Shown: in pieces, positions 34,221 to 47,317 of the stretch
Layout: the number at the start of each line of letters is the position of its first letter
Numbering within the stretch: the stretch's first letter is position 1
Source: Stutzerimonas balearica DSM 6083
GTDB lineage: Bacteria; Pseudomonadota; Gammaproteobacteria; Pseudomonadales; Pseudomonadaceae
DNA: 64,000 nt
Reading direction: 5' to 3'
NCBI RefSeq assembly: GCF_000818015.1
Contig: NZ_CP007511.1
Coordinates: forward strand, 1,908,001 to 1,972,000
Translations under genes and position numbers: made by a program
Notes under the pieces: model-generated
Told to the model about the DNA's origin: nothing
Seen by the model: only the letters and a program-made list of their open reading frames with translations
Databases searched by the model: none

Positions 34221-36429
34221 TCGTCCGGCCGTGACCATGCCCGGAGAAAACCTGCTGCCCAGCGATGCCGAGGTCGACGCGCTGGTCCGCGCCGAGCATG
34301 GCGATCCGTTCTCCATCCTGGGCCCGCACCCCGACGGCGATGGGCTGGTGATTCGTGCCTACCTGCCAAACGCACTCGGTGTCGAGGTGCTCGACCGTTC
34401 GGGGGGCACTGCACTGGGCGGCATGGAGCAGGGGCAGGTGCCGGGATTGTTCTTCATCCGTTTGGCCAACCCGCAACCCTACCTGTTGCGCATCCGCTGG
34501 GCCGGTGGTGAGCAGGTCACCGAGGACCCGTACAGCTTCGGGCCGCAGCTCGGCGAAATGGACATCTATCTGTTTGCCGAGGGTAATCATCGCCATCTGG
34601 GGCGGGCGTTCGGCGCCCAGCTGATGACGGTCGACGGTGTCGAGGGCGTTCGCTTCGCGGTCTGGGCGCCGAATGCGCGGCGCGTCTCGGTGGTGGGCGA
34701 TTTCAATGGTTGGGACGGGCGCCGCCATCCGATGCGGCTGCGCATTCCCGCGGGGGTCTGGGAGATCTTCATCCCCAGGCTCAGGCCTGGCGACCGCTAC
34801 AAATACGAGATTCTCGGCCCCGGCGGCGTGCTCCCGCTGAAGGCCGATCCGGTGGCACTGGCCACCGAGCTGCCACCGGGTACTGCCTCGGTGGTCGCTT
34901 CGCCATTGGACTACGAGTGGCGAGACGACAGTTGGCTGCAGCAGCGCATGGTGCGCCAGAAGGTTGACCAGCCGATGAGCATCTACGAGGTGCACGCCGG
35001 CTCCTGGCGGCGCGAGGGCGGCGATGACGGGCGGCTCTACAACTGGCACGAGCTGGCCGAGCGGCTGATCCCTTACGTGGTCGAGATGGGCTTCACCCAT
35101 ATCGAGCTGATGCCGATCATGGAGCACCCGTTCGGCGGTTCCTGGGGCTACCAGCCGCTCTCGCAGTTCGCGCCGAGCGCCCGTTACGGCTCGGCGCACG
35201 ATTTCGCCGCGTTCGTCGATGCCTGCCACAACGCCGGCATCGGCGTGATCCTCGACTGGGTACCGGCGCATTTCCCCACCGACGCTCATGGCCTGGGCGA
35301 TTTCGACGGTACCTCGCTGTACGAGTACGACCACCCATTCGAAGGCTTCCACCAGGACTGGGACACCTACATCTACAACCTTGGGCGCACCGAGGTGCAC
35401 GGCTTCATGCTGGCCTCGGCGTTGCACTGGCTGCGCGAGTTCCACGTCGACGGCCTGCGTGTGGATGCGGTCGCCTCAATGCTCTACCGCGACTATTCAC
35501 GCAAGGAAGGCGAGTGGATCCCCAACCGCCACGGCGGACGGGAGAACCTCGAGGCCATCGAGTTCCTGCGTCACCTCAACGACGTCGTTGCCCTCGAGGC
35601 GCCCGGCGCGATGGTGATTGCCGAGGAGTCCACCGCGTTCCCGGGGGTCAGCAAACCGACCAGCGAAGGCGGCCTCGGCTTTTCCTACAAGTGGAACATG
35701 GGCTGGATGCACGACTCGCTGAAGTACATCCAGGAAGACCCGGTCCACCGGCAGTACCACCACGACAAGATGACCTTCGGGATGGTCTACGCCTACTCGG
35801 AACACTTCGTGCTGCCGATCTCCCATGACGAGGTGGTGCACGGCAAAGGGTCGCTGATCGACAAGATGCCGGGCGACCGTTGGCAGATGTTCGCCAACCT
35901 GCGCGCCTATCTCGCGTTCATGTGGACGCATCCGGGCAAGAAACTGCTGTTCATGGGCTGCGAATTCGGCCAGTGGCGCGAGTGGAGCCATGACCGCGAG
36001 CTCGACTGGTTCCTGCTGGACGAACCGGACCACCGCGGCGCCCAGCAGATGCTGCGCGACCTCAACCGCCTGTACGGGCAGGAGCCGGCGCTGTACCAAC
36101 TGGATGCCGACCCGCGCGGTTTCGAATGGCTGATCGGCGATGATCGGGCCAACAGCGTGTTCGCCTGGTTGCGGCGCAGCGCGGCTGGCGACCCCTTGCT
36201 GGTGGTGTGCAATTTCACCCCGGTGGTGCGGGAAAACTACCGGATCGGCGTGCCCCTGGAAGGGCGCTGGCAGGAGATTTTCAACAGCGATGCCGCCTGT
36301 TACGGCGGGTCGAATGTTGGGAATGGTGGCAGCCTGGGCGTCGAGGCGACGCCCAGCCACGGCCAGGCGGTTTCGCTGAACCTGACACTGCCACCGCTTG
36401 GGGTGCTGATCTTCCGGCCAGAGGGCTAG
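34213..36429 (+). CDS. glgB: 1,4-alpha-glucan branching enzyme
   Basis: A 738-residue GH13 branching enzyme. Two N-terminal CBM48-like modules (first around [12 protein letters not shown], second around [23 protein letters not shown]) precede the catalytic barrel. The nucleophile is in [15 protein letters not shown], the acid in [14 protein letters not shown] and the third acid in [14 protein letters not shown]. Translation is coupled to treS by an eight-base overlap. Its stop (CTAG) is shared with the convergent gene on the other strand. Confidence 0.97.
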
Positions 36430-37286
36430 CTGGCCGGTGCGCCCCCGGGCAGCAACGAACGGGCGATCCACGGGCCGCGGTGCAGCAGCGCGTTATGCAG
36501 CTGCACCAGGTCAGCTCCGGCGACCCGACGAGCCTGCACATGGGCGGCCGTCTGAATGCCGCCGACGGAAAGCAGCGCCACCTGCGGCCCGCAGCTGGCC
36601 TTCAAGGCCGCGACCTGCGCACAGGCCTCGTACTGCGCGCTTGGTTGCTGCCAACGGCGATAGCGCGCGGCGGTCGCCGGTGGGCCGGGGTCATGCGCCG
36701 CGAGCAGGCCGTCGTAGCCTAAGGTCCGCAGTCGCTCGGTCAGCTCGAGCGGCACCTCGCCCGGCACACAACGCAGCTTGACCAGCAGCGGGACGTGTCG
36801 CCCGCTCTGCTCGCGCAGTCGATCGACCTGCTGACGCAGCAGCATGAGTACCTCGTGCAGCCGCGCTGGCTCAGCAAGCAGCGCGGCGCTAAGTGGACTC
36901 AGCAGGTTGAGCATCAGGTAGTCCGCCGCCTGCCAGGCGCGGGTGATTCCCTTGCGCAATGTCTCGGCGTCCGCCGCTACCGGCAACCCCAGATTGACAC
37001 CCAGTACGGCATCGCCCGGCTGCGTGCGCCAGCGCGGCAACCTGGCGATGTCGAAGGTGCCGAGTTCGCTGAAACCGAACCCCAGCCGGGCAGCGCCACG
37101 TCCCAGCTTGCCGTGCCTGTCGAAGCCGGCGGCGATGCCCAGCGGCGAAGGAAAGCTCAGCCCCATGACGCGAATGGCCTGGTGCCGCTGCGGCTGCGGC
37201 AGCGGGGCCACTCGCGCCGCCAGGCAGGTCGCCCCATACAGTGTGCGGTGGGCCAGGCGCCGGAAGTCGATCGAGAGGTCAGGCAT
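36426..37286 (-). CDS. Diverged dihydroorotate-dehydrogenase-like (PyrD-like) flavoprotein
   Basis: About 286 residues, shorter than PyrD (~340). Recognisable PyrD elements are [14 protein letters not shown] near 47-60, [11 protein letters not shown] near 68-78, and the FMN-phosphate region [11 protein letters not shown]...[16 protein letters not shown]. The helix-strand that binds orotate is altered: the INRMGFNN segment is absent, and ISSPNTPGLR is replaced by [12 protein letters not shown], which keeps the base-position Ser but loses the downstream Asn. The TNTT strand is AAHDPG. It therefore probably binds FMN but not orotate. It overlaps the upstream aminotransferase gene by eight bases and ends the second pqq operon. 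Confidence 0.72.
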
Positions 37287-38379
37287 TGCGCTTCTCGAAC
37301 GCACGCATGAACGAGACCAACCGGGCGACGCCCTCCACTGGCATGGCGTTGTAGAGGCTGGCCCGCACGCCTCCCAGGGCGCTGTGACCTTGCAGGTTAT
37401 GCAGGCCGCTGCGTTCGGCCTGCTGCAGGAATGGCGCCAGGAGCGAGTCGTCGGTCAGTTCGAAGCAGACATTCACGGTTGAGCGATCCTCGTGGCGGAT
37501 GGCGCAGCGGTAGAGCCCGCTGGCGTCGATGCAGTCATACAGCTGCCGGCTGCGCTCACGGCAGCGTTGCGCCATCGCCGTCACGCCGCCACGCCCGGCG
37601 ATCCAGTGCAGCATGCGATTGGTGCAATAGAGCGCAAGCGTCGGCGGAGTGTTGAAGCGGCTGTGCTGTTCGGCGAGCACCTGGTAGCTGAAGGCGCTGG
37701 GCAGCCCCGCGCGCGGGGCATGGAGCAGGTCGCGCCGGACGATCAGCAGGCACAGCCCGGGCACTCCCAGGTTTTTCTGGGTGCTGGCGTAGATCATGCC
37801 AAAGCGCTCGACCGGGATCGGTCGGGTGAGCAGGTCCGAGGTCATGTCGGCTACCAGCGGCACCGCCAGTTCGGGAAAAGCCTGCATCTGCAGGCCGCTG
37901 CCGGTTTCGTTGCTGGTCACGTGGCAGTAGCCCGCATCGGCTGGCACCTGCCAATCCCGGCTCGGCGGCATGGCGGTGTAGCCGGTGGCCTCGCCGCTCG
38001 CGGCCAGCCTCGCCGGCGCGTGGCGGCAGGCTTCGATGAAGGCCTTGCGCGACCAGTGGCCGGTCACCAGGTAGGCCGCCGATTGCCCGGCGGCCAGGAG
38101 ATTCAGCGGCAGCAGGCCGAACTGGGCGGAGGCGCCGCCCTGGGCGAACAGCACCTCATAGTCGGGCGGTATCGCCAGCAGCGTGCGCAGCAGCCCCTCG
38201 GTCTCGTCCATCAATTGGCGAAAGCCGGCGCCGGTGAAGGGCTGCTCGAGCAGCGGCACACCGCAGGCGGGCGCTTGGGTGAGCCAATCGGCCAGTTGCA
38301 GGCGTACCTCGGTCGGCAACATCGCCGGCCCGGCGGCGAAGTTGTAGCGCTCGGCGCGCTCAGAACAGATGCAGGCCAT
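37279..38379 (-). CDS. SerC-like PLP-dependent aminotransferase
   Basis: A 366-residue class V aminotransferase of the phosphoserine aminotransferase family: RYNFAAGPAMLP at residues ~9-20, LFAQGGASAQFGLLPLNLL, CHVTSNETGSGLQM, and the PLP lysine in YASTQKNLGVPGLC. It is a paralog placed in an operon with PqqA/D/E homologs rather than the usual serC context. The ATG 38379 overlaps the upstream membrane-protein gene by 20 bases, and its stop overlaps the flavoprotein start. It may act on phosphoserine, but a role in amino-acid or peptide tailoring is also possible. Confidence 0.82.
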   Translation of the reverse strand: MACICSERAERYNFAAGPAMLPTEVRLQLADWLTQAPACGVPLLEQPFTGAGFRQLMDETEGLLRTLLAIPPDYEVLFAQGGASAQFGLLPLNLLAAGQSAAYLVTGHWSRKAFIEACRHAPARLAASGEATGYTAMPPSRDWQVPADAGYCHVTSNETGSGLQMQAFPELAVPLVADMTSDLLTRPIPVERFGMIYASTQKNLGVPGLCLLIVRRDLLHAPRAGLPSAFSYQVLAEQHSRFNTPPTLALYCTNRMLHWIAGRGGVTAMAQRCRERSRQLYDCIDASGLYRCAIRHEDRSTVNVCFELTDDSLLAPFLQQAERSGLHNLQGHSALGGVRASLYNAMPVEGVARLVSFMRAFEKRNA

Positions 38380-38863
38380 GACTGCCGGCCGCCATCGAAA
38401 GCAACAAGGGAAAGGACAGGATGGTGTTGCTGCGCGAGGAGAGAAAGGTGATCCGCGAGCAACGAACCCGCTCTTCGAGCGTCGCCGGGACAAAGCCAAG
38501 CAGCTTTTTCTGATGCGGCCAGAGCACCAGCCAGAGGTTGAGCAGCATCAGCGTACCGATCCAGGCGCCGAGGCCGATCACCGCCAGCGGCCCTTCGAGC
38601 AGCAGCGCATCGGGTAGCCAGCCGCGCTGCCAGAGCATGAACATGCCCGAGGCCCAGACGACCAGCGAGGCGTAGCGGAATATGCCGTGTTCACGTTTCA
38701 TCCGCGCTTCCAGGTCGCGGTTCAGCGTGGCGACGTCGATTCCGTTCTGCAACGGAACGAAGCGCGGGTTCTGTATGAAGTTGGCGTAGTTGTGGCCGAC
38801 CCAGACGAGCGCAAAGAGCAGGTGCGCGTACCGGGCCAGTACGTCGAGCAGTGGCAGTTGCAT
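38360..38863 (-). CDS. Small four-helix membrane protein resembling the PuuD (urate hydroxylase) membrane domain
   Basis: A 167-residue protein with about four transmembrane helices. Conserved histidines lie in RYAHLLFALVWVGHNYANFIQNP near the N-terminus, in KREHGIFRYASLVVW, and in SMAAGSHGLHLF at the C-terminus. The pattern and the FIQNPRF/REHGIFRY segments resemble the membrane domain of PuuD/Urate_ox_N proteins, which may bind heme through such histidines; it is far shorter and lacks a cytochrome c domain. Identity is tentative. It lies between the small peptide gene and the SerC-like gene. Confidence 0.62.
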   Translation of the reverse strand: MQLPLLDVLARYAHLLFALVWVGHNYANFIQNPRFVPLQNGIDVATLNRDLEARMKREHGIFRYASLVVWASGMFMLWQRGWLPDALLLEGPLAVIGLGAWIGTLMLLNLWLVLWPHQKKLLGFVPATLEERVRCSRITFLSSRSNTILSFPLLLSMAAGSHGLHLF

Positions 38864-38949
38864 CGGGCGCCTCCAGGGCGTTGGTCTGACGAGGTCGGGC
38901 CGTCGGCGCATTCGATGCGCCTGGCCTGCGGGCGGTGTGGTTCGTGCAT

Positions 38950-38979
38950 GGGGCCCGCCGGGTGCCGGCGTGCGGCCCC
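38950..38979. repeat. GC-rich hairpin inside the second pqq operon
   Basis: Two stacked stems, GGGGCC/GGCCCC and CGCCGG/CCGGCG, with a three-base loop and a three-base bulge, in the 129-base gap between the 30-residue peptide gene and the PuuD-like gene. No T run follows, so it could be an mRNA-processing or partial attenuation element rather than a terminator. Confidence 0.55.
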
Positions 38980-38992
38980 TTGGGTCAGGCCG

Positions 38993-39085
38993 CTAGATCA
39001 CCCAGCTCAACAACAGGTAGCAGCCGAGCGTCAGCGCAAGACCGGCGCTGACGGTTCCGCCGAACGAGTCATGGGGCAGTTTCAA
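38993..39085 (-). CDS. Candidate 30-residue single-pass membrane peptide
   Basis: A short frame starting at TTG (39083-39085) inside the last codons of pqqE, with AGGGGG about seven bases upstream, and stopping at TAG (38993-38995). The peptide begins MKLPHDSFGG, followed by one hydrophobic span of about 20 residues (TVSAGLALTLGCYLLLSWVI). The basic start and clean transmembrane helix support a real product, for example a small subunit or stabiliser for the adjacent four-helix membrane protein. The start is not certain. Confidence 0.5.
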   Translation of the reverse strand: MKLPHDSFGGTVSAGLALTLGCYLLLSWVI

Positions 39086-40214
39086 GCTCTACCCCCTGGC
39101 TGGCGTGTCTGGCGATCAACTGGCCCGGCGCGCGCGTGGCATCCTCGGCGAGTTGTACGGCCTGCTGGATCACCTGATGCCTGGGTGACTTGCTGCACGC
39201 CGGATCGGTGTTGGCGCCATTGCCGGTCAGCAGCAGGGCCTGGCAGCGGCAGCCGCCGAAGTCCTTTTCCTTTTCGTCACAGCTACGGCAGGGCTCTGGC
39301 ATCCAGGCATCGCCGCGGTAGAGATTGAAGACGGGGGAGTCATGCCAGATCTGCTCGAGGCGCTGCTGGCGTACGTTGGGAAACTGGAGATCCTTGAAGT
39401 TGCTGGCCTGGGAGCAGGGCAGCACGTTGCCGTTCGGCGCGATGGTGACGTGGATCGCACCCCAGCCGTTCATGCAGGCCTTGGGCCGGCCCTCGTAATA
39501 GTCAGGGATGACGAAGAAGATGGTTAGCCGGTCGCCATAGCATTGCCGTGCTCGCTGCACCTCGGCTTCGGCGCCCTGCAGCTGCTCGCGCGTGGGCATC
39601 AGTTCGTCACGGTTGAGCAGGGCCCAGTTGTAGTACTGCACGTTGGCCAGCTCGACGTACTCGATTCCCGGCTCGACGGCCAGCTCGATGATGTGCGGGA
39701 TCTGGCCAATGTTCTGCCGGGTGATCGGCACGTTGAGCACCATGGGAAAGTCCAGCGACTTGATCAGTCGGGCCATGCGCAGCTTGCGCTCCCAGGCGTC
39801 GACCCCGGCCAGTTGGCGCGCCACGTTGCGGTCGGTGGACTGGAAACCGAGCTGGACGTGCCGCAGCCCGGCGGCTTTCAGGGCGTGCAGCCTGGCTTCG
39901 GTCAGGCCGATGCCGGAGGTGATCAGGTTTGTGTAGTAGCCCATGCGATCGGCTTCGGCGACGAGGGTTTCCAGATCCTTGCGCAGGGTCGGTTCGCCAC
40001 CGGAGAAACCGATCTGCATGGCGCCCATGGCGCGCGCCTGGGCCATCACGTCGATCCACTCCGCCGTGCTCAGTTCGTCCTGGCGATAGTCCGCGAAGTT
40101 GCGTGGGTTGCTGCAGAACACGCACTGCAGCGGGCATTGGTAGGTCAGCTCCAGCAGCACCCAGACCGGGTTGCCGCTGCCGTCAAGCCTTAGCTCTGAT
40201 CCAGCCTTTGCCAT
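39069..40214 (-). CDS. pqqE: PqqE-family radical SAM peptide cross-linking enzyme (second copy)
   Basis: A 381-residue radical-SAM/SPASM protein. C27, C31 and C34 in YQCPLQCVFCSNP bind the catalytic cluster; GFSGGEPTLRKD is the SAM-binding GGE region. The SPASM cysteines follow the PqqE pattern: [42 protein letters not shown] and ACSK. PqqE joins Glu and Tyr side chains of PqqA by a C-C bond. It is clearly diverged from the second, rightward pqqE in this window. It overlaps the upstream pqqD by 32 bases. Confidence 0.88.
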   Translation of the reverse strand: MAKAGSELRLDGSGNPVWVLLELTYQCPLQCVFCSNPRNFADYRQDELSTAEWIDVMAQARAMGAMQIGFSGGEPTLRKDLETLVAEADRMGYYTNLITSGIGLTEARLHALKAAGLRHVQLGFQSTDRNVARQLAGVDAWERKLRMARLIKSLDFPMVLNVPITRQNIGQIPHIIELAVEPGIEYVELANVQYYNWALLNRDELMPTREQLQGAEAEVQRARQCYGDRLTIFFVIPDYYEGRPKACMNGWGAIHVTIAPNGNVLPCSQASNFKDLQFPNVRQQRLEQIWHDSPVFNLYRGDAWMPEPCRSCDEKEKDFGGCRCQALLLTGNGANTDPACSKSPRHQVIQQAVQLAEDATRAPGQLIARHASQGVELETAP

Positions 40215-40476
40215 GGGATACCTCCAGGAAGTTCAGGACGCCGGCCCTTACGGCCGCCGGGTCGGATGCGCTGTAACTGTGCGCGAGCGATTCGATCAGC
40301 TCAGCCACCGTGGTCTTGCCGTCGCAGCGCTTGAGTATTTCGCCGCCGCTGGCGTTGAGCTTCACGATGCCCTCGGGGTAGAGCAGCACATGGGCCTGCT
40401 GCGATTCCTCCCAGCGAAACAGGAAAGGCGAGCGAATCTCGTAACGGGTGGTTGGCGATGGGGTTGTTGTTGTCAT
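40183..40476 (-). CDS. pqqD: PqqD-family peptide chaperone (second copy)
   Basis: A 97-residue winged-helix protein that binds the precursor peptide and presents it to PqqE. The family core is visible: [36 protein letters not shown], split near residues 31-66, then a C-terminal FLEVSHGKGWI. A Thr/Pro-rich 10-residue N-terminal extension precedes RYEIRSPFLFRWEE. AGGAAC lies ahead of ATG 40476. Confidence 0.88.
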   Translation of the reverse strand: MTTTTPSPTTRYEIRSPFLFRWEESQQAHVLLYPEGIVKLNASGGEILKRCDGKTTVAELIESLAHSYSASDPAAVRAGVLNFLEVSHGKGWIRAKA

Positions 40477-40535
40477 GGCCAGTTCCTCGTCTGACCGGCG
40501 CGGCGATGGCGTGGCGCCGCCGCGCCGGCATGGGC

Positions 40536-40610
40536 TCAGCGAACGTAGACGTACGCGGTGACTTCGAAGCCCAGACGCAGGTCGCAGAACTCTGGATCGA
40601 TCCACTGCAT
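40536..40610 (-). CDS. pqqA: PqqA-family precursor peptide (second copy)
   Basis: A 24-residue precursor starting MQWIDPEFC and ending DLRLGFEVTAYVYVR. The Glu (16) and Tyr (20) that PqqE links are present in the E-V-T-A-Y spacing. It differs from the standard precursor in this window ([16 protein letters not shown]) at the N-terminal half and at the residues after the cross-link Tyr, where a second Tyr (22) appears. GAGGAG precedes the ATG. It heads the leftward cluster. Confidence 0.85.
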   Translation of the reverse strand: MQWIDPEFCDLRLGFEVTAYVYVR

Positions 40611-41013
40611 GGCGGTTCTCCTCTAGCGGTTTCAGGGGTGTGTCGCGGTGTCGCGTTTCGAAACTAAGCCGGGAGTCTGCTCACCCTAATAGGACTTTTG
40701 GGTCGATTCCTTCGGCTGTTGGTCCTGGTTTTTCGCGGGCTCGGATTTATTTGCCGAGCGCGCTGCCAGGCTTGTCTGCGGTCAATGACAGGGCGGGTTT
40801 GGCGCCTAGCATGAGCGGTTTTTTTTCGCGTTTTCGCCGCGCTCGGAGGCCGCCGCGCCGCTGCGGCGAACCTTGGCATCTACTACCAAATGAGGAACCC
40901 ATCGCTGCCATGGGGGCATACCTGGGCCTTCATGGCACTGCCTAAGATCGGTCCATGCCCTGTGCCCGCTGGCGCAGGCTCTACAAGCAGAAAGAAAGAG
41001 AGAGGCCGCATCC
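40611..41013. promoter_or_regulatory. Divergent control region between the second pqqA and exaC
   Basis: About 403 bases with no gene. On the exaC side, ACTACCAAATG at 40882-40892 resembles ACTACCAATG upstream of the rightward pqqA. On the pqqA side there are the palindrome GTTTCGAAAC (40655-40664) and CCTAATAGGAC at 40685. A T-rich tract lies at 40814-40825. Both operons probably respond to alcohol-oxidation signals, but no boxes can be assigned with confidence. Confidence 0.55.
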
Positions 41014-44025: not shown

Positions 44026-44097
44026 ATGTGGACCAAACCCGCTTTCACTGACCTGCGTATTGGTTTCGAAGTGACCATGTATTTCGCCAATCGTTGA
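44026..44097 (+). CDS. pqqA: PQQ precursor peptide PqqA (canonical copy)
   Basis: A 23-residue peptide, [13 protein letters not shown] followed by [10 protein letters not shown], with the cross-link pair Glu15 and Tyr19. It matches the standard Pseudomonas/Klebsiella PqqA length and pattern. AGAGGACC lies just before ATG 44026. A hairpin separates it from pqqB, which should let pqqA be made in excess over the enzymes. Confidence 0.95.
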
Positions 44098-44105
44098 TTG
44101 GCTGC

Positions 44106-44134
44106 GCCCCGGTCAGCCGGGGCTTTGCTTTTTT
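44106..44134 (+). terminator. Attenuating terminator between pqqA and pqqB
   Basis: A 7-base-pair stem, GCCCCGG (44106-44112) and CCGGGGC (44117-44123), loop TCAG, followed by TTTG-C-TTTTTT. Because pqqB has a good ribosome-binding site 17 bases later, this is better read as a partial terminator than the end of the operon. Confidence 0.8.
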
Positions 44135-44150
44135 GGAGGGGAGCTGGCCT

Positions 44151-45062
44151 ATGTTCGTACGGATTCTCGGATCTGCCGCTGGAGGCGGCTTCCCTCAGTG
44201 GAACTGCAACTGCGCCAACTGCTCCGGGGTGCGCAACGGCACGCTTCGCGCCCAGCCGCGCACCCAGTCGTCCATCGCCATCAGTGACGACGGGCAAAAC
44301 TGGATTCTCTGCAACGCCTCGCCGGACATTCGTGCCCAGCTCGAGTCGTTTCCCGCGCTGCAACCGGCGCGTCGCCCACGCGATACGGCAATCGGCGCGA
44401 TCATCCTGCTCGACAGCCAGATCGACCACACCACCGGCCTGCTGACCCTGCGCGAAGGGTGCCCGCACGAGGTGTGGTGTACCGAGATGGTCCATCAGGA
44501 CCTGACCACCGGTTTCCCCCTGTTCAACATGCTTTCGCACTGGAATGGCGGGCTGCGCTGGAACCCCATCGGCCTGGAAGGGCAGTTCTCCATCGATTGC
44601 TGCCCGAATCTGCTGATCTCGCCGATTCCACTACGCAGCTCAGCGCCGCCCTATTCACCGCACCGCAACGATCCGCATCCGGGTGACAACATCGGGCTGC
44701 TGATCGAGGATCGCCGCAGCGGCGGGCGTCTGTTCTATGCGCCGGGGCTCGGCCAGGTGAGCGAGGCGCTGTGCGAGACCATGCGCGGCGCCGATTGCCT
44801 GCTGGTCGACGGTACGCTCTGGCGTGACGACGAGATGCAGGTGCGCGAGGTAGGCGACAAACTCGGCAGTGAGATGGGCCACCTGCCGCAGAGCGGCCCG
44901 GGCGGCATGATCGAGGTGCTCGACGGCGTGCCGGGCAAGCGCAAGATCCTCATTCACATCAACAACACCAACCCGATCCTCGACGAGGAGTCGGCCGAGC
45001 GCAGGATCCTCGACGAGCACGGCATCGAAGTCGCCTTCGATGGCATGGACATCGAGCTGTAG
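44151..45062 (+). CDS. pqqB: PQQ biosynthesis protein PqqB (metallo-hydrolase fold hydroxylase)
   Basis: A 303-residue metallo-beta-lactamase-fold protein. It opens [20 protein letters not shown] with the conserved zinc-site cysteines (CNCANC). The histidine motif is modified, as in PqqB ([13 protein letters not shown]), and the C-terminal [16 protein letters not shown] matches the family. It hydroxylates the tyrosine-derived ring of the cross-linked intermediate in current models. A GGAGGGGAG ribosome-binding site precedes the ATG. Confidence 0.95.
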
Positions 45063-45092
45063 CACCAGACGAACCAGAAAAGGACTGCTTTC

Positions 45093-45845
45093 ATGACGCT
45101 GCCGGCCATGAGCCCCACCGAATTCGAGCAGGCGCTGCGCGCCAAGGGCGACTTCTACCACATCCACCATCCGTACCATCGTGCGATGTACGAGGGGCGC
45201 GCCACGCGCGAGCAGATCCAGGGCTGGGTGGCCAACCGTTTCTACTACCAGGTGTGCATTCCGGTGAAGGATGCGGCGATCATGGCCAACTGCCCGGATC
45301 GCGCGACCCGGCGCGAGTGGATCCAGCGAATCATCGATCACGACGGTCGTCCCGGCGAGGAGGGTGGGATTGAGGCCTGGCTGCGTCTGGCCGAGTCCGT
45401 GGGGCTCGATCGCGAGCAGGTGCTGTCCGAAGAGCTGGTGCTGCCTGGCGTCCGTTTCGCAGTCGATGCCTATGTGAATTTCGCCCGTCGCGCCAGCTGG
45501 CAGGAGGCGGCCAGCAGCTCGCTCACCGAGCTGTTCGCGCCGACGATCCATCAGTCGCGGCTGGATGCCTGGCCACAGCATTACCCCTGGATCGACCCGG
45601 CCGGCTACGACTATTTCCGCAAGCGGCTCAAGGAAGCGCGGCGTGATGTCGAGCACGGCCTGCGTATCACGCTCGAGCACTATCGCACCCGCGAGGCGCA
45701 GGAGCGCATGCTCGAGATCCTGCAGTTCAAGCTCGACGTGCTCTGGAGCATGCTCGATGCCATGAGCATGGCCTATGAGCTGGACCGCCCGCCGTACCAC
45801 ACCGTGACCCGCGAGCGGGTCTGGCATCGTGGCATCGCCTTGTGA
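45093..45845 (+). CDS. pqqC: Pyrroloquinoline-quinone synthase PqqC
   Basis: A 250-residue cofactor-free oxidase that performs the last eight-electron oxidation to PQQ. The family helices are present: [38 protein letters not shown], and [17 protein letters not shown]. Conserved His and Tyr/Arg active-site residues fall in these blocks. It lies 30 bases after pqqB. Confidence 0.96.
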
Positions 45846-45912
45846 TGCCGAGGCCTGGACGTAGTGGAATGCAGATGCTGTTGTGTGTCATGCATCCCCG
45901 GAGAACGAATCG

Positions 45913-46191
45913 ATGAGCGACGACATCCTGCTGAAGGTTCCGGCATTGCGCCGCGGCTATCGCTTTCAGTTCGAGCCGGCCCAGGACTGTCATGTGCTGC
46001 TGTACCCCGAGGGCATGATCAAGCTCAACGAGAGCGCCTCGGCAGTGCTCGAACTGGTCGACGGGGCGCGTACCGCAGGCGCCATCGTCGCCGAATTGCA
46101 GGCCCGGTTCCCCGAAGCCGAAGGGATCGAGGAAGACATTCTGGGCTTTCTGGAGGTTGCGCTTGAACGTTTCTGGATCGAGTTTCGCTAA
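45913..46191 (+). CDS. pqqD: PQQ peptide chaperone PqqD
   Basis: A 92-residue protein, [17 protein letters not shown], then [25 protein letters not shown] and a C-terminal [13 protein letters not shown]. It binds PqqA and hands it to PqqE. ATG 45913 is used; an in-frame upstream extension would add only ten residues. It overlaps pqqE by about 29 bases, the same style of overlap seen in the leftward copy. Confidence 0.93.
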
Positions 46192-47317
46192 GCCTGACGT
46201 GAGCGTCGGCCCGCCGATGTGGCTGCTGGCCGAGCTGACCTACCGCTGCCCACTGCAGTGCCCCTACTGTTCCAACCCGCTGGATTTCGCCGCGCATCAG
46301 CAAGAGCTCAGCACCGAGCAGTGGATCGAGGTGTTCCGCCAGGCGCGCGAGCTGGGCGCGGCCCAGCTGGGGTTTTCCGGAGGCGAGCCGCTGGTTCGGC
46401 AGGATCTGGTCGAGCTCATCGCTGCAGCCCGCGAACTCGGTTACTACACCAACCTCATCACCTCCGGCATCGGGCTGACCGAGGAGAAGATCGCCAGCTT
46501 CGCCGAGGCGGGGCTGGACCATATCCAGATCAGCTTCCAGGCCGCGGACGAGGAGGTGAACAATCTGCTCGCCGGTTCGAAGAAAGCCTTCGCCCAGAAG
46601 CTGGAGATGGCTCGTGCGGTCAAGCGCCACGGCTATCCGATGGTGCTCAATTTCGTCACCCATCGGCACAACATCGACAACATCGACAACATCATCCGCC
46701 TGTGCCTGGAGCTGGAAGCCGACTTCGTCGAGCTCGCCACCTGCCAGTTCTACGGCTGGGCGGAACTGAACCGCGCCGGGTTGTTGCCGAGCAAGGCCCA
46801 GCTGGTGCGCGCCGAGCAGATCACCAACGAGTGGCGTGAGCGCCTGGCGGCCGAAAAGCATCCATGCAAGCTGATCTTCGTCACGCCGGACTATTACGAG
46901 GAACGTCCTAAGGCCTGCATGAACGGGTGGGGTAACCTCTTCCTCGACATTACCCCCGACGGTACTGCGCTGCCGTGCCACAGCGCGCGTCAGCTGCCGG
47001 TGCAGTTTCCCAACGTGCGCGAACACAGCATCGAGCACATCTGGTACCACTCCTTTGGCTTCAACCGTTACCGGGGCGATGACTGGATGCCCGAGCCCTG
47101 TCGCAGCTGCGATGAGAAGGCCCGCGACTTCGGCGGCTGCCGCTGTCAGGCGTTCATGCTCACCGGCGACGCCGCCAATGCCGACCCGGTTTGCAGCAAG
47201 TCGGGCCAGCATGAGCTGATTCTCGCCGCGCGCCGCCAGGCCGAGGAGGCGCCCGAGCCGCTCGAGGGGCTGACCTGGCGCAATCCGCAGGCTTCGCAGC
47301 TGATCTGCAAGGGCTGA
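46163..47317 (+). CDS. pqqE: PqqA peptide cyclase PqqE
   Basis: About 384 residues. The radical-SAM cluster cysteines are C29, C33 and C36 in [13 protein letters not shown]; the SAM motif is [16 protein letters not shown] cysteines are in [41 protein letters not shown] and VCSK. The start is uncertain: TTG 46163 has TGGAGG six bases upstream, while TTG 46157 and GTG 46199 are alternatives. Full length for the family. Confidence 0.93.

Follow-up and report, generated by a model that had tools for sequence, protein, structure and literature searches.

A 64,000-nucleotide stretch of the Stutzerimonas balearica DSM 6083 genome (contig NZ_CP007511.1, positions 1,908,001 to 1,972,000), hereafter the window, carries a second pqqA-pqqD-pqqE set in addition to the canonical genes for pyrroloquinoline quinone (PQQ) biosynthesis. 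The second set opens a block of seven leftward genes that continues with a small membrane peptide, a PuuD-like protein, a SerC-like pyridoxal phosphate (PLP) enzyme and a PyrD-like flavin mononucleotide (FMN) protein (Table 1). A preliminary description made from the sequence alone had reported the coordinates of these genes and overlaps of 32, 17, 20 and 8 bases, all of which proved exact. Neither pqqB nor pqqC lies within 36426-40610, as was also reported, and the block is not by itself a canonical PQQ cluster; the open reading frames (ORFs) of both (44094-45062 and 45093-45845) belong to the canonical cluster, about 3.5-5 kb from the block. The host genome, a single contig of 4.38 Mb, contains two PqqA matches in all and also encodes one PqqC, narG, UbiV and nosZ.

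Table 1. Positions of the block, its upstream elements and the canonical cluster in the window
Feature	Position	Strand	Details
pqqA2, precursor peptide of 24 aa with Glu-x3-Tyr and the tail GFEVTAYVYVR	40536..40610	-	PF08042 39.2 bits; TIGR02107 32.6 bits (cut-off 20)
pqqD2, peptide chaperone	40183..40476	-	TIGR03859 84 bits (cut-off 46); PF05402 62.5 bits
pqqE2, radical SAM/SPASM PqqA cyclase, block clade	39069..40214	-	TIGR02109 503 bits (cut-off 381)
30-aa membrane peptide MKLPHDS..., TTG start	38993..39085	-	17-base overlap with pqqE2; seventh gene, conserved
PuuD-like four-helix membrane protein, 167 aa, related to Urate_ox_N	38360..38863	-	PF06181 35.2 bits (cut-off 26.9), covering only residues 88-160
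SerC-like PLP enzyme without phosphate-binding residues	37279..38379	-	residue survey of 80 sequences including the window
PyrD-like FMN protein without orotate-binding loop	36426..37286	-	Pfam DHO_dh 50.1 (cut-off 27)
Canonical pqqA-pqqB-pqqC-pqqD-pqqE, O2-dependent set, for comparison	44026..47317	+	
FNR/ANR-like box TTGAC-N4-GACAA	40772..40785	-	175 bases before pqqA2
Conserved promoter-region element AAAGTCNTATTAG	40686..40698	-	about 87 bases downstream of the FNR-type box

The same genes recur side by side in many proteobacteria. When 26 PuuD-like proteins were used to scan a single genome of each species, 152 relatives were obtained, and the locus counts given here refer to the best 80 of these; close relatives are frequent among them, so that the counts, which are uncorrected for phylogeny, overstate independence. 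PqqE and the SerC-like protein are each present in 79 of the 80 loci, the PyrD-like protein in 75, PqqD in 69 and PqqA in 67, with the missing genes due in part to contig ends and diverged proteins. The block is syntenic across alpha-, beta- and gammaproteobacteria, where the prevailing order is pqqA-D-E-puuD-serC-pyrD, and synteny across 80 loci excludes a chance grouping. Throughout these three classes the accessory genes stay beside pqqADE, and no scattering was seen in the best 80 of 152. Likewise, a PyrD search in Pseudomonadaceae found puuD and serC adjoining pyrD at all 15 loci. Several Dechloromonas-type loci show a variant order, in which pqqE-puuD-serC-pyrD is followed by pqqB-pqqC-pqqA-pqqD. 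Among 72,556 plasmids, two carry the set: one from Methylovirgula sp. HY1 (L160), where a Crp/Fnr regulator lies immediately upstream, and one from Acidibrevibacterium fodinaquatile, typed as mobilizable (L161).

PqqA2, PqqD2 and PqqE2 were described as intact, and each exceeds its NCBIfam equivalog cut-off, although PqqD2 falls below the narrower PqqD model NF002535 (86.3 versus a cut-off of 101). The Glu-x3-Tyr motif is present in the window peptide; in other loci it served as the search term for PqqA and thus is no separate test there. The tail GFEVTAYVYVR is found in 57 of 68 block PqqA peptides (67 loci plus the window), while the canonical peptides have another tail that is common to 17 of 17, all from Stutzerimonas or Pseudomonas. 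PqqE2 has the CxxxCxxC motif of radical S-adenosylmethionine (SAM) enzymes and the SPASM cysteines, and 10 of its 11 cysteines are invariant in all 65 block PqqE sequences, in line with the earlier statement that the PqqE cysteines are kept. It shares 54% identity with PqqE1 over 350 columns.

A PqqE was assigned to the block if it was followed by a PuuD-like gene at a distance of no more than 2.6 kb. In a quick tree of 95 rows, calculated without bootstrap after 12 Stutzerimonas-type loci and L130-L159 had been dropped as near copies or fragments, a single branch splits 65 block sequences from 30 others with a Shimodaira-Hasegawa-like approximate likelihood ratio test (SH-aLRT) support of 97. 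By its sequence, block PqqE is a lineage of its own, apart from canonical PqqE. PqqA2, PqqD2 and PqqE2, being intact and conserved members of their families, are expected to yield the usual Glu-Tyr cross-link. A likeness to mycofactocin maturation, suggested in the preliminary description, does not extend to the cyclase, which scores 99.9 bits against the MftC radical SAM model TIGR03962 (cut-off 265). Six PqqA matches occur in each of two genomes, G211 (Novimethylophilus, L056) and G220 (a metagenome-assembled genome (MAG), L072), and one of those in G220 contains a stop codon.

The accessory proteins resemble known enzymes in fold or family and differ from them at specific sites. Of 79 loci, a single motif scan places a peptide of the 30-aa type between pqqE and puuD in 59, and combining it with a looser scan raises the total to 72. 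The PuuD-like protein had been called a histidine-rich four-helix protein; its predicted structure is indeed a four-helix bundle (mean predicted local distance difference test score (pLDDT) 87), and His14, His24, His59 and His162 are invariant in 26 of 26 rows. Its neighbours in the PDB are uninformative. PuuD itself is a cytochrome c urate oxidase, to which the 167-residue block protein is similar over one stretch of Urate_ox_N; PF06181 is its only family match and no cytochrome c domain was found in it, which distinguishes it from PuuD urate oxidase.

The SerC-like protein is a SerC-fold PLP enzyme that retains the catalytic lysine, already recognized in the window, and the carboxylate arginine in all 80 sequences surveyed. 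At the residues that we take to bind phosphate in SerC, however, histidine is replaced by phenylalanine and its arginine is gone in 80 of 80, and the second arginine is gone in 78 (kept in 2). True phosphoserine aminotransferase was therefore rejected as an assignment. The protein passes PRK05355 (407.8 versus 253) and misses TIGR01364 (373.8 versus 443.6), and the genome encodes two SerC-type proteins that are 43% identical to each other.

For the PyrD-like protein, the predicted model (pLDDT 89) has the fold of class 2 dihydroorotate dehydrogenase, and the FMN-site GG and lysine are kept in the nine rows compared. In the same nine rows, comparison with true dihydroorotate dehydrogenases reveals that the FNSxG and GGLSG loops are absent and that the PNT and NTT motifs, whose asparagines presumably bind orotate, are changed, which bears out the claim that orotate-binding residues have been lost. 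With all 12 listed NCBIfam cut-offs missed as well (best score 98.9 versus 457 bits), the protein cannot be classed as a dihydroorotate dehydrogenase. Judged by these residues, the SerC-like and PyrD-like enzymes have changed substrate.

The region upstream of pqqA is suggestive of anaerobic control. The box in the window has one mismatch to TTGAY-N4-RTCAA and three to the strict form TTGAT-N4-ATCAA. Upstream of block pqqA genes the looser form is exact in 24 of 68 cases and present with at most one mismatch in 37, compared with 19 and 75, respectively, of 678 other ORFs in these loci (one ORF that shares the block's own site was excluded). The strict form is exact at 18 of the 68, where base shuffles predict 0.08, and exact boxes are present in loci from alpha-, beta- and gammaproteobacteria. 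Among 17 canonical pqqA genes, all from Stutzerimonas or Pseudomonas, no box within two mismatches was found. In Pseudomonadaceae the position of the box is fixed, and the degenerate Stutzerimonas forms, including that of the window, occupy the same columns as exact Pseudomonas boxes. A box with at most one mismatch precedes the block in 15 of 19 genomes with at least two PqqE proteins and in one of seven with a single PqqE (p 0.005), a contrast chosen post hoc and limited to genomes with a readable pqqA upstream region. The rarity of the box in single-PqqE genomes is understandable, since a sole set must not be confined to anoxia.

A second element, AAAGTCNTATTAG, occurs with no more than one mismatch at -82 to -91 in the window and in 28 of 28 Stutzerimonas and Pseudomonas loci with a readable pqqA upstream region. 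It matches once in the window, where shuffles predict 0.47 matches at up to two mismatches, and it was not found in Denitrificimonas L052.

The block also keeps company with genes for anaerobic respiration. Among 198 Pseudomonadaceae genomes, 21 carriers were recognized by a PyrD-like match with E < 1e-22 (G183 with a fragment only, G172 with two pieces), and co-occurrence was assessed by Fisher tests uncorrected for phylogeny. UbiV is present in 21 of 21 carriers versus 73 of 177 non-carriers, narG in 17 versus 52, and PqqC in 21 versus 129. All 21 carriers have nosZ, including the four that lack narG, compared with 8 of 14 non-carriers in the same genus. UbiV was likewise found in 43 of the 48 carriers searched out of the 51 that hold loci L034-L084, one of which, Denitrificimonas, is also in the Pseudomonadaceae sample.

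In the flanks of the 80 loci we found UbiV (9 loci), UbiU (8), UbiT (5), NarG (8), NarX (8) and NarK (6). UbiT, UbiU and UbiV passed their NCBIfam cut-offs, the seed for NarK scores below its own (191 versus 312), and NarG and NarX were read from the sequence. At least one gene of these types lies near 16 of the 80 loci, all within L034-L084, and none was found in the fetched flanks of 29 Stutzerimonas and Pseudomonas loci. Homologs of PQQ-dependent alcohol dehydrogenases flank 17 of the 80 loci and in several Pseudomonas genomes lie just after pyrD on the opposite strand; one representative passes TIGR03075 (777 versus 480).

O2 is regarded as necessary for PQQ synthesis: PqqC requires it, and PqqB probably does as well. 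Carriers of the block nearly always have both enzymes: PqqC exceeds its cut-off in 27 of 30 and PqqB in 42 of 48, and the five in which PqqB has no match are draft genomes or MAGs. A single PqqE match was found in 9 of 30 carriers, seven of which (Motiliproteus, two Dechloromonas, three Sedimenticola and Terasakiella) also have one PqqA and one PqqC, and in these seven the PqqE is that of the block. With a sole PqqA and PqqE beside one PqqC, the canonical end enzymes must draw on the peptide and cyclase of the block, provided that these organisms make PQQ at all. The cross-linked intermediate should thus be common to both endings. The preliminary interpretation is upheld in part: the block is dedicated, its SerC-like and PyrD-like enzymes have altered substrate sites, and linkage is conserved across three classes. 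Its suggestion that the missing pqqB and pqqC signal a product unlike PQQ does not fit the near-universal presence of both genes in carriers, nor the single-copy genomes, in which the cross-linked peptide of the block should serve PQQ.

On this evidence the block probably encodes a second half of PQQ biosynthesis that dispenses with O2 and is under anaerobic control. We infer independence from O2, PQQ as the product and the order of steps from the observed gene content, conservation, residue changes, box and co-occurrence. PqqA2, PqqD2 and PqqE2 would supply the Glu-Tyr cross-linked peptide, and the PuuD-like protein with the 30-aa peptide, the SerC-like enzyme and the PyrD-like enzyme would replace the O2-using PqqB and PqqC in hydroxylation, ring closure and oxidation. 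Oxygen would be drawn from water and electrons passed to the quinone pool, much as UbiT, UbiU and UbiV replace the ubiquinone oxygenases. The most economical account is a shared first half with two alternative endings, pqqBC with O2 and puuD-peptide-serC-pyrD without it. Where two PqqE sets are present, that of the block would be the anaerobic one, while in single-set genomes its pqqADE genes would serve both endings, with pqqBC acting in air and puuD-serC-pyrD in its absence. The parallel with UbiT, UbiU and UbiV lies in an anaerobic substitute for O2-using steps found mostly in the same organisms and in part at the same loci; no homology is claimed, and the block lacks a U32 peptidase-type protein.

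We regard as possible, though somewhat doubtful, a more explicit scheme in which these proteins form a complete second half free of oxygenases. A heme-type PuuD-like protein, with the peptide as its small subunit, would put water-derived oxygen on the cross-linked tyrosine; the former phosphoserine transaminase would act on the glutamate end, closing or preparing the ring; and the former dihydroorotate dehydrogenase would carry out dehydrogenations into the quinone pool. This scheme is made slightly less probable by the fact that one locus, L075 of Bradyrhizobium nanningense (pqqD-pqqE-pqqA-puuD-pyrD), has no SerC-like gene within 20 kb.

Several observations weigh against an anaerobic branch. 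The SerC-like enzyme may be dispensable or replaced, given L075, and a transaminase has no obvious role because both PQQ nitrogens derive from the Glu and Tyr amines. A redox role of the PuuD-like protein is suggested solely by its conserved histidines, and the PyrD-like gene was not found in 5 of the 80 loci, some of them at contig ends. The strict FNR consensus is absent from the window and from the 19 Stutzerimonas upstream regions compared; at 31 of 68 block pqqA genes the box has at least two mismatches even to the looser consensus; and none of 10 Dechloromonas-type loci has a box with fewer than two mismatches before pqqE. Also, narG is missing in 4 of the 21 Pseudomonadaceae carriers and UbiV in 5 of the 48 others, and among the well-assembled genomes examined, none depends solely on the block.

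Among the alternatives, an unlikely one is that the product of the block is another cofactor derived from Glu-Tyr, or PQQ in a modified form, for use in anaerobic respiration, with the three accessory enzymes acting as tailoring enzymes. The absence of PqqB and PqqC from the block, the remodelled SerC-like and PyrD-like sites and the distinct, conserved PqqA2 tail would all suit such a product. However, the seven genomes in which the only PqqA and PqqE are those of the block, beside a PqqC, are difficult to reconcile with it, the recurrent dehydrogenase neighbours point to PQQ itself, and flanks of up to 10 kb revealed no other candidate dependent enzyme among recurring neighbours. Less likely still, the block might substitute for only part of the late pathway, such as the ring oxidation by PqqC at low O2, and still need PqqB. 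Retention of PqqB and PqqC in nearly all carriers, and the Dechloromonas-type loci that unite pqqBC and the accessory genes in one cluster, would agree with this, but bypassing PqqC alone gives no anoxic synthesis if PqqB also requires O2, and the Pseudomonadaceae carriers have N2O reductases and mostly nitrate reductases. The alternative offered in the preliminary description, in which the block does no more than supplement the cross-linked PqqA available to the canonical enzymes, would leave puuD, serC and pyrD with unrelated functions and is very improbable: cross-supply is plausible for a full PqqE such as PqqE2, but the accessory genes adjoin pqqADE throughout three classes, reading frames overlap in the window, and anaerobic-type control would feed O2-requiring enzymes such as PqqC when O2 is absent.

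An anaerobic branch of PQQ synthesis would matter for denitrifying methylotrophs and alcohol oxidisers, which rely on PQQ enzymes even though PQQ synthesis is held to depend on O2. It would explain how nitrate-breathing bacteria supply these enzymes without air and open the question of anoxic PQQ supply to direct tests. It would also extend the scope of quinoprotein metabolism under anoxia and bring to light new chemistry of the transaminase and dihydroorotate dehydrogenase folds. According to a 2024 study of N2O-respiring methanotrophs (PMC11102522), a PQQ-dependent methanol dehydrogenase should function without O2 only if PQQ is carried over or supplied, and the study invokes other dehydrogenases instead.

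The preliminary description knew of no published account of this gene set, but the clusters are described by Li et al. 2025 (PMC12423496). That paper reports pqqAED-puuD-serC-pyrD clusters such as Hden_0548-0553 of Hyphomicrobium denitrificans, which has the same genes as the window block, and names as further carriers Stutzerimonas stutzeri, Halomonas sulfidovorans, Methylophaga nitratireducenticrescens, Azoarcus sp. DN11 and other Hyphomicrobium. There the carriers are noted to be able to denitrify, PqqB is called a probable hydroxylase, and the final O2-free steps of PQQ synthesis are speculated to be encoded in these clusters. As evidence, the authors report that transcription of the PQQ genes Hden_0551-0553 falls together with that of denitrification and ubiXDTUV genes in regulator mutants, and they cite Klebsiella and P. 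aeruginosa, whose PQQ genes are all canonical, as organisms that do not form PQQ under anaerobic conditions. Both the gene cluster and the central hypothesis have been published already, the function being a prediction; the membrane peptide goes unmentioned in section 2.9 of the paper, and none of five FNR/CRP-type terms occurs in its main text. Our analysis adds the residue changes, the PqqE clade, the boxes, the co-occurrence counts and the single-copy argument.

Other genes recur beside the block. An M48/HtpX-like metalloprotease below NCBIfam cut-offs directly follows pyrD in 7 of the 80 loci (L044, L050, L053, L062, L066, L073 and L074) and is also present on plasmid L161, and a creatininase-family protein, MftE-like but below the cut-off, lies near the block in five. 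Both are candidates for proteases that release the Glu-Tyr unit. A protein of about 329 aa without an NCBIfam match adjoins the block in betaproteobacterial-type loci L051, L055, L064, L068, L078 and L081. Finally, in G172 and G183, which belong to the same genus as the window, the PyrD-like gene is seemingly split or fragmentary, offering a possible natural test of its loss.

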